The translations under genes were made by a program, and so were the position numbers. Positions 9,126-9,569 of a DNA stretch of 14,975 bases are shown in pieces; within the stretch, counting starts at the first letter, position 1, and each line of letters opens with the position of its first letter. The notes under the pieces were generated by a model. That model saw only the letters and a list, made by a program, of their open reading frames with translations, was not told where the DNA came from and did not search any database. This DNA is from a bacterium (GTDB lineage Bacteria > AUK180), in contig JAUXGM010000044.1 of the NCBI GenBank assembly GCA_030622125.1, positions 1 to 14,975 on the forward strand, written 5' to 3'.

Positions 9126-9154
9126 ATTTTAACAAAATTCCAAAAATTTAGCAA
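9126..9154 (-). promoter_or_regulatory. Promoter of the amino-sugar/mobB gene unit
   Basis: Minus-strand TTGCTA (9149-9154), 17 bp spacer, TAAAAT (9126-9131). The predicted transcript start near 9119 leaves only about 10 bases before the ATG at 9109. Confidence 0.5.
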
Positions 9155-9221
9155 ATAAATGTCTGGTGTCTCAACATTTTGGACTTTTTTTAAAAATAGT
9201 TTTTTTGCCAAATAAGATTTT

Positions 9222-9470
9222 TTAACCACGGATTTAACGGATTATACGGATTTTTAAAATTTCTAAATTTTCAGTTATGAAATGAAATTTCATTATTCTA
9301 AATCTTTTTAATTATTAGAAAATTAATTTTCTACTTTATAGAAAAGATTTAATAAAAAGTGATTTAATAAAATCACTTTACTGAAAATTTAAAGATAGAT
9401 TCTAAAAATTTTTTTGTTTTCAATAAATTTATTATTTTTAATCTGTCAAATCTGTCTAATCTGTGGTTAA
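9222..9470. repeat. 249-bp cloverleaf-like palindromic element
   Basis: The ends are inverted: TTAACCACGGATT (9222-9234) against the complement of AATCTGTGGTTAA (9458-9470), one mismatch. Inside, AAATTTTCAGT (9265-9275) pairs perfectly with 9380-9390, then AAATCTTTT (9300-9308) with 9342-9350. Three hairpins fill the rest: ATGAAAT/ATTTCAT (9277-9293), a perfect 18-bp palindrome (9316-9333), and AAAGTGATTT/AAATCACTTT (9356-9379). The result is a roughly symmetrical cloverleaf. Just inside each end are 9-bp tandem words (CGGATTTAA, CGGATTATA; ATCTGTCAA, ATCTGTCTA). There is no ORF. It fits a MITE-like non-autonomous element or a structured DNA/RNA site. It fills most of the 480-bp gap between the divergent acyltransferase and secD genes. 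Confidence 0.7.
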
Positions 9471-9540
9471 TATTATTATTTAAATACCGAATTCTTTTTC
9501 AAGCAAAATCCAACATGTTTCTGATATTTTGCAATAAATG

Positions 9541-9569
9541 TTGCAATTTTAGTTAAAATTTGATAAAAT
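9541..9569 (+). promoter_or_regulatory. Promoter of secDF
   Basis: TTGCAA (9541-9546), 17 bp, TAAAAT (9564-9569). The leader then carries AGGAGG at 9583-9588, 7 bases before the secD ATG at 9596. Confidence 0.6.

Follow-up and report, generated by a model that had tools for sequence, protein, structure and literature searches.

MITE-like elements are a known kind of bacterial repeat: bacterial MITEs are short and gene-less, carry terminal inverted repeats and lie dispersed in intergenic DNA. Proteins of the GxxExxY family (TIGR04256; PF13366, PDDEXK_3) are annotated in many genomes without a function; PD-(D/E)XK nuclease is the Pfam name of the family, for which, to our knowledge, no activity is known, and we know of no described mobility for it. 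A further family of relevance here comprises the four-helix-bundle genes of 23S rRNA intervening sequences (PF05635, TIGR02436). REPs, finally, are extragenic palindromes thought to be mobilized by RAYT (PMC2817692, PMC3116915).

Here, we describe a 249-bp palindrome (9222-9470) upstream of secD in a 14,975-nt stretch of bacterial DNA, hereafter the window. It recurs as a dispersed repeat without a gene, built around a cloverleaf core of conserved structure and bounded by inverted arrays of 9-bp words; arrays of this kind flank GxxExxY genes in many phyla. Like bacterial MITEs, it has the features named above and is a probable internally deleted relative of a gene-bearing element; unlike them, its ends consist of three 9-bp iterons and its gene-bearing relatives encode a PDDEXK_3 protein rather than a known transposase. 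Members of the GxxExxY family in other phyla are flanked by identical or sister word-array inverted repeats, whereas the window element is without an ORF. The palindrome is likely a MITE-like, non-autonomous element, with a GxxExxY nuclease acting in trans to mobilize the contents of word arrays and with the core as an amplified parasite. The 249-bp fold is probably a parasitic, gene-less "passenger" version of a widespread and seemingly undescribed element whose one small nuclease-like gene is GxxExxY.

The palindrome is real, and every arm named in a first-pass annotation is present with exactly complementary arms, including a perfect 9-bp stem and three hairpins of 7, 9 and 10 bp at their reported places. 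The closing stem is perfectly paired, as that annotation had it, with a length of 12 bp rather than 11. The 9-bp tandem words described inside both ends were also found (ACGGATT three times and ACAGATT three times). Folded as DNA with 20 bp added on each side, the palindrome reaches -47.2 kcal/mol, against a mean of -22.8 (SD 3.2) for 200 dinucleotide shuffles (z -7.76), none of which folds as well; the assertion that the fold is beyond chance thus holds. So does the statement that it has no ORF, as none of at least 80 aa overlaps it. Its parts are:

9222-9229 and 9463-9470: outer paired ends, TTAACCAC and GTGGTTAA, seen in the sequence.
9222-9252, plus strand: left ("CGG") end, TTAACCACGGATTTAACGGATTATACGGATT, three 9-bp words; kept in most copies, with a pattern that recurs in many phyla.
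9440-9470, minus strand: right ("CAG") end, inverted, AATCTGTCAAATCTGTCTAATCTGTGGTTAA; kept in most copies.
9264-9391, plus strand: cloverleaf core, or module A, 128 nt; subject of alignment A1 and covariance model R1.
9264-9275 and 9380-9391, plus strand: closing stem of 12 bp, TAAATTTTCAGT and ACTGAAAATTTA; helix 1 of the core covariation test.
9277-9293, plus strand: hairpin 1, 7 bp, ATGAAAT/ATTTCAT; helix 2.
9300-9350, plus strand: middle arm stem of 9 bp, AAATCTTTT (9300-9308) and AAAAGATTT (9342-9350); the whole middle arm makes up helices 3 and 4.
9316-9333, plus strand: middle arm palindrome, 9 bp, TAGAAAATT/AATTTTCTA, carried on the stem 9300-9308/9342-9350.
9356-9379, plus strand: hairpin 3, 10 bp, AAAGTGATTT/AAATCACTTT; helix 5.

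The genome to which the window belongs holds 75 matches to the palindrome, grouped into about 40 dispersed places, 25 of which lie within 50 bp of a contig end, as expected because repeats break an assembly. A copy runs from the left end TTAACCACGGATTNNACGGATTNNACGGATT through a linker, the 128-nt core and a second linker to the inverse of TTAACCACAGATTAGACAGATTNNACAGATT, so that the terminal inverted repeats read TTAACCAC(G/A)GATT at both ends. The core extends from TAAATTTTCAGT to ACTGAAAATTTA with three arms between. In two places, a second three-hairpin module (CCTCAATCAGAAAGATTGAGG, GATGAAATAAGTTTCATC, GTAGAAGATGAGAATTTCAATCTTCTAC) was seen within the same ends, beside the core at L018 (C62) and in its place at L047 (C82). 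At L092 (665-1444, C184), the core's expected position directly next to the CGG end is taken by an ORF with a weak AbiEii-like nucleotidyltransferase match (E 2e-4, just under the cut-off). This genome also contains a different recurrent intergenic repeat, GGTTATATTGTTTTCGGGTGGTCTATTGTTATCTAATGAAGAGTCCGGGACACA, at L084, L088 and L108.

For the core, 17 copies were aligned (A1), 13 from this genome and four from G002, a relative of another genus in the same family. Own-genome copies are on average 93.5% identical to one another and 74% identical to the G002 copies. Across the two genera, 8 of 42 pairs are altered on both sides with pairing kept; shuffles give 1.2 such pairs, with 0 of 500 reaching 8, and slid structures give 1 to 4. 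The covariance model R1 finds 18 core copies in the own genome and four in G002, and none in the 39 other genomes searched with it (G001 and G003-G006, which belong to the same family or class, and 34 further genomes). The lack of a second copy and of covariation in relatives would have been refuting according to the first-pass annotation; both are contradicted by the roughly 40 places and the compensatory changes. That such changes preserve the cloverleaf suggests that the DNA fold itself is important for the element, and extrusion of the palindrome as a cruciform may be possible.

Alternatively, the core could insert, as an element in its own right, into word arrays already in place, and the arrays would be a separate kind of repeat. 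It sits in other words in G002 (ACCACAGAGCACGCAGAG), and in the own genome module B or other contents are also found next to the CGG end (L047, L092, L098). We regard this reading as rather unlikely, because in nearly all own-genome copies the core comes with both ends and with the same inner linkers, and the repeat reaches out to the ends rather than being confined to the core.

The palindrome had been placed between divergent promoters, and -35/-10-like boxes with 17-bp spacers are indeed found on both sides, pointing outward. These boxes and the neighbouring motifs are:

9126-9154, minus strand: putative promoter of the leftward gene, TTGCTA-17-TAAAAT, from sequence reading only.
9541-9569, plus strand: putative promoter of secD, TTGCAA-17-TAAAAT, on the same basis.
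9201-9223, minus strand: promoter-upstream A/T motif, host DNA outside the element, AAAAAATCTTATTTGGCAAAAAA.
9160-9184, minus strand: second promoter-associated motif, also host, TGTCTGGTGTCTCAACATTTTGGAC, adjoining -35 boxes.

The strip outside the CGG end, TTTTTTGCGAAATAAGATTTTTT, has 52 sites in the own genome against 5 for a reversed-pattern control. The A/T motif AAAAAATCTTATTTCGCAAAAAAC, which is UP-element-like, lies mostly beside -35 boxes at many genes and occurs also at sites without the element (L265, L278, L292); it is therefore counted as host promoter-upstream DNA and not as element. An outer inverted repeat, TGTCTGGTGTCTCAACATTTTGGAC / TCCAACATGTTTCTGA, was considered as part of the element and rejected, since it adjoins -35 boxes and is also present at element-free sites. 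The second motif, GTCCAAAATG / ATGTTGAGACACCAGACA, was seen just upstream of -35 boxes, in the window at 9160-9184 and about 9505-9535 and elsewhere at L020, L022, L025, L084, L088, L096 and L107; it is possibly a regulator site.

This position bears on another proposal of the first-pass annotation, a structured transcript, i.e., a small or regulatory RNA that recurs in front of many genes. Such an RNA would account for the cloverleaf kept by compensatory changes and for the orientation of neighbouring genes: of 26 genes adjoining the CGG end, 22 point outward from the element (p = 5e-4, an optimistic value given that the copies are related), with starts usually 64-124 bp off. At the CAG end, no orientation bias of the adjoining gene was found (13 of 24). 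However, the element lies upstream of the -35 boxes of both promoters and hence outside the leaders, and Rfam covariance models gave no match at gathering score for the 249-bp palindrome. The non-canonical cells of the core alignment comprise 5 G.T and 9 A.C, so that neither strand looks selected as RNA. Moreover, copies read individually show the core in either direction while the ends and linkers around it stay the same, and the element is missing upstream of secD in relatives. The transcript is thus disfavoured and has little probability. For the secD comparison, the palindrome is absent in all six relatives (G001-G006), a result that counts as absence and not as a clean empty site because the neighbours of secD differ from those in the window; in G002, secD and the divergent gene are 89 bp apart. 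Neither a precise empty site nor a target-site duplication was found for the family of the window.

The REP, BIME and REPIN systems with their RAYT partners resemble the element in being extragenic palindromes with many copies. A REP- or REPIN-like palindrome mobilized by a host RAYT (Y1 tyrosine transposase) would find candidate enzymes in the own genome, which encodes four Y1_Tnp genes with frames of 282-306 aa. At least three of these four genes have ends of their own, GGGGACGGTGGT...ACCACCGTCCCC, unrelated to AACCACGGATT, and RAYT was rejected as the mobilizer on account of these differing ends. The element is also much longer, at 249 bp against 20-40 bp for a REP, and the foot of the palindrome (9222-9470) lacks a GTAG or CGTC tag as defined in PMC3733652. 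A RAYT-driven origin therefore seems very unlikely. Three of the four RAYT-like genes (PF01797; L227, L228, L229) lie between GGGGACGGTGG...CCACCGTCCCC ends, and ends of this type also occur bare elsewhere in the genome, e.g., at L287.

The reading of the palindrome as a GxxExxY-related element draws on the distribution of its ends. The exact end pattern, AACCACRGATTNNACRGATTNNACRGATT with its three inverted 9-bp words, was found across many phyla in public genomes, in at least 116 stretches, against a chance expectation of about 0.004 in a uniform collection of that size, and in only 10 stretches among 2.9 million viral contigs. Outside the phylum of the window, such ends often belong to bare hairpins. 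In three cases, each from a different phylum, the inverted ends exactly enclose a PDDEXK_3 ORF: L112 (Neomarinimicrobiota), L116 (Opitutaceae) and L117 (Planctomycetota). An ordinary IS-family MITE with a TA target (IS630/Tc1-like), moved by a transposase for which the words are only binding sites, would fit the TA found on both sides of most own-genome copies (TA-ACCAC...GTGGT-TA, as read from the copies). Other phyla do not preserve this TA (e.g., L113, L136, L177), and GxxExxY genes are the only genes found between ends of the element's type, which makes an IS-type MITE improbable.

GxxExxY genes themselves tend to be bounded by such arrays. Among 30 PF13366 loci drawn from a survey of 193 genomes, 20 have inverted repeats beyond dinucleotide shuffles in their 160-bp flanks, almost all composed of arrayed words 7-10 bp long, e.g., ACCACAGAGGCACGGAGACACAGAG or ACCGCAGAGGACGCAGAGGTCGCAGAG; the flank test found no word-array repeats at the other 10. 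Among neighbouring ORFs, a control judged against mononucleotide rather than dinucleotide shuffles, 2 of 39 had such repeats; both are PDDEXK_3 copies by position, leaving 0 of 37. In Desulfosporosinus, short copies with the same ends enclose an in-frame PF13366 C-terminal stump (E 1e-5). Between radA and a FAD-protein gene, Bacteroides finegoldii carries a GxxExxY unit with word-array ends, about 470 bp long, in a gap that measures 13 bp in Parabacteroides distasonis and holds another gene in Phocaeicola massiliensis. Bare hairpins with ACCACAGATT-type ends are present in that B. finegoldii genome as well, one location being between trmB and an aminotransferase gene and the other after rny, and its relatives have no hairpin at these two sites. 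A dense group of GxxExxY genes was observed in the complete genome G146 (contig C1, 786-828 kb), where about ten genes and fragments, some in tandem, occupy 42 kb. Elsewhere, GxxExxY gave no match in phages and only seven records in plasmids.

These observations support the first option named in the first-pass annotation, a non-autonomous mobile element: copies are dispersed, they share inverted-repeat ends with a gene-bearing class, internally deleted copies of that class exist elsewhere, and the secD upstream regions of six relatives lack the element. Of the iteron-ended GxxExxY class defined here, the window copy has the inverted word-array ends, and neither an ORF nor a PDDEXK_3 remnant was recognised in it. 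A same-end autonomous partner was not found in the own genome, such partners occurring only in other phyla, and for this reason the element is called MITE-like. The GxxExxY gene of the own genome is associated with the sister words ACCGCAGAAACGCAGAGATCGCAAAG (ACCGCAGAAACGCAGAG), not with ACCACGGATT.

Four-helix-bundle genes introduce a further complication. At least one own-genome copy, L010 (C82:10197-10514), lies between inverted word arrays (AGAGGTTAGAGGTTGGAGGTTAGAGG) that are clear in the inverted-repeat test; L012 and L013 are weak in the same test, though alike by eye, and L011 gives none. The words at these genes differ from those of the window element, and exact ACCACRGATT ends were not found to enclose any PF05635 gene. 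Because word arrays also flank L010, GxxExxY may be a passenger and not the mobilizing enzyme. The identity of the enzyme is accordingly the weakest step of the proposal: the own GxxExxY gene has sister words, L010 lies in arrays, and some GxxExxY loci are without repeats.

We infer that the element moves, with GxxExxY as the enzyme and a hairpin form as the substrate. In this mechanism, a protein, most plausibly the GxxExxY nuclease acting in trans, would recognise the paired word arrays, possibly in the form of an extruded hairpin, and would mobilize any DNA between them. The gene-less cloverleaf core would then be a replicating parasite amplified in this lineage, and the element would enter T-rich DNA just upstream of promoters. 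More broadly, and more tentatively, there may be a large undescribed class of mobile elements in which a GxxExxY PD-(D/E)XK protein is the sole protein and its nuclease drives movement, the ends comprise three degenerate words of 7-10 bp in inverted arrays, and gene-less derivatives, from bare hairpins to the cloverleaf, have been bred in many phyla.

A search of the open literature found no description of a link between GxxExxY genes and word-array ends, and a text search of that literature gave no match to the literal word strings of the ends. If GxxExxY genes are indeed bounded by word-array repeats and leave gene-less copies behind, they would constitute a mobile-element system open to testing, and an origin would be at hand for the tandem-word repeats strewn through intergenic DNA in many uncultured bacteria.
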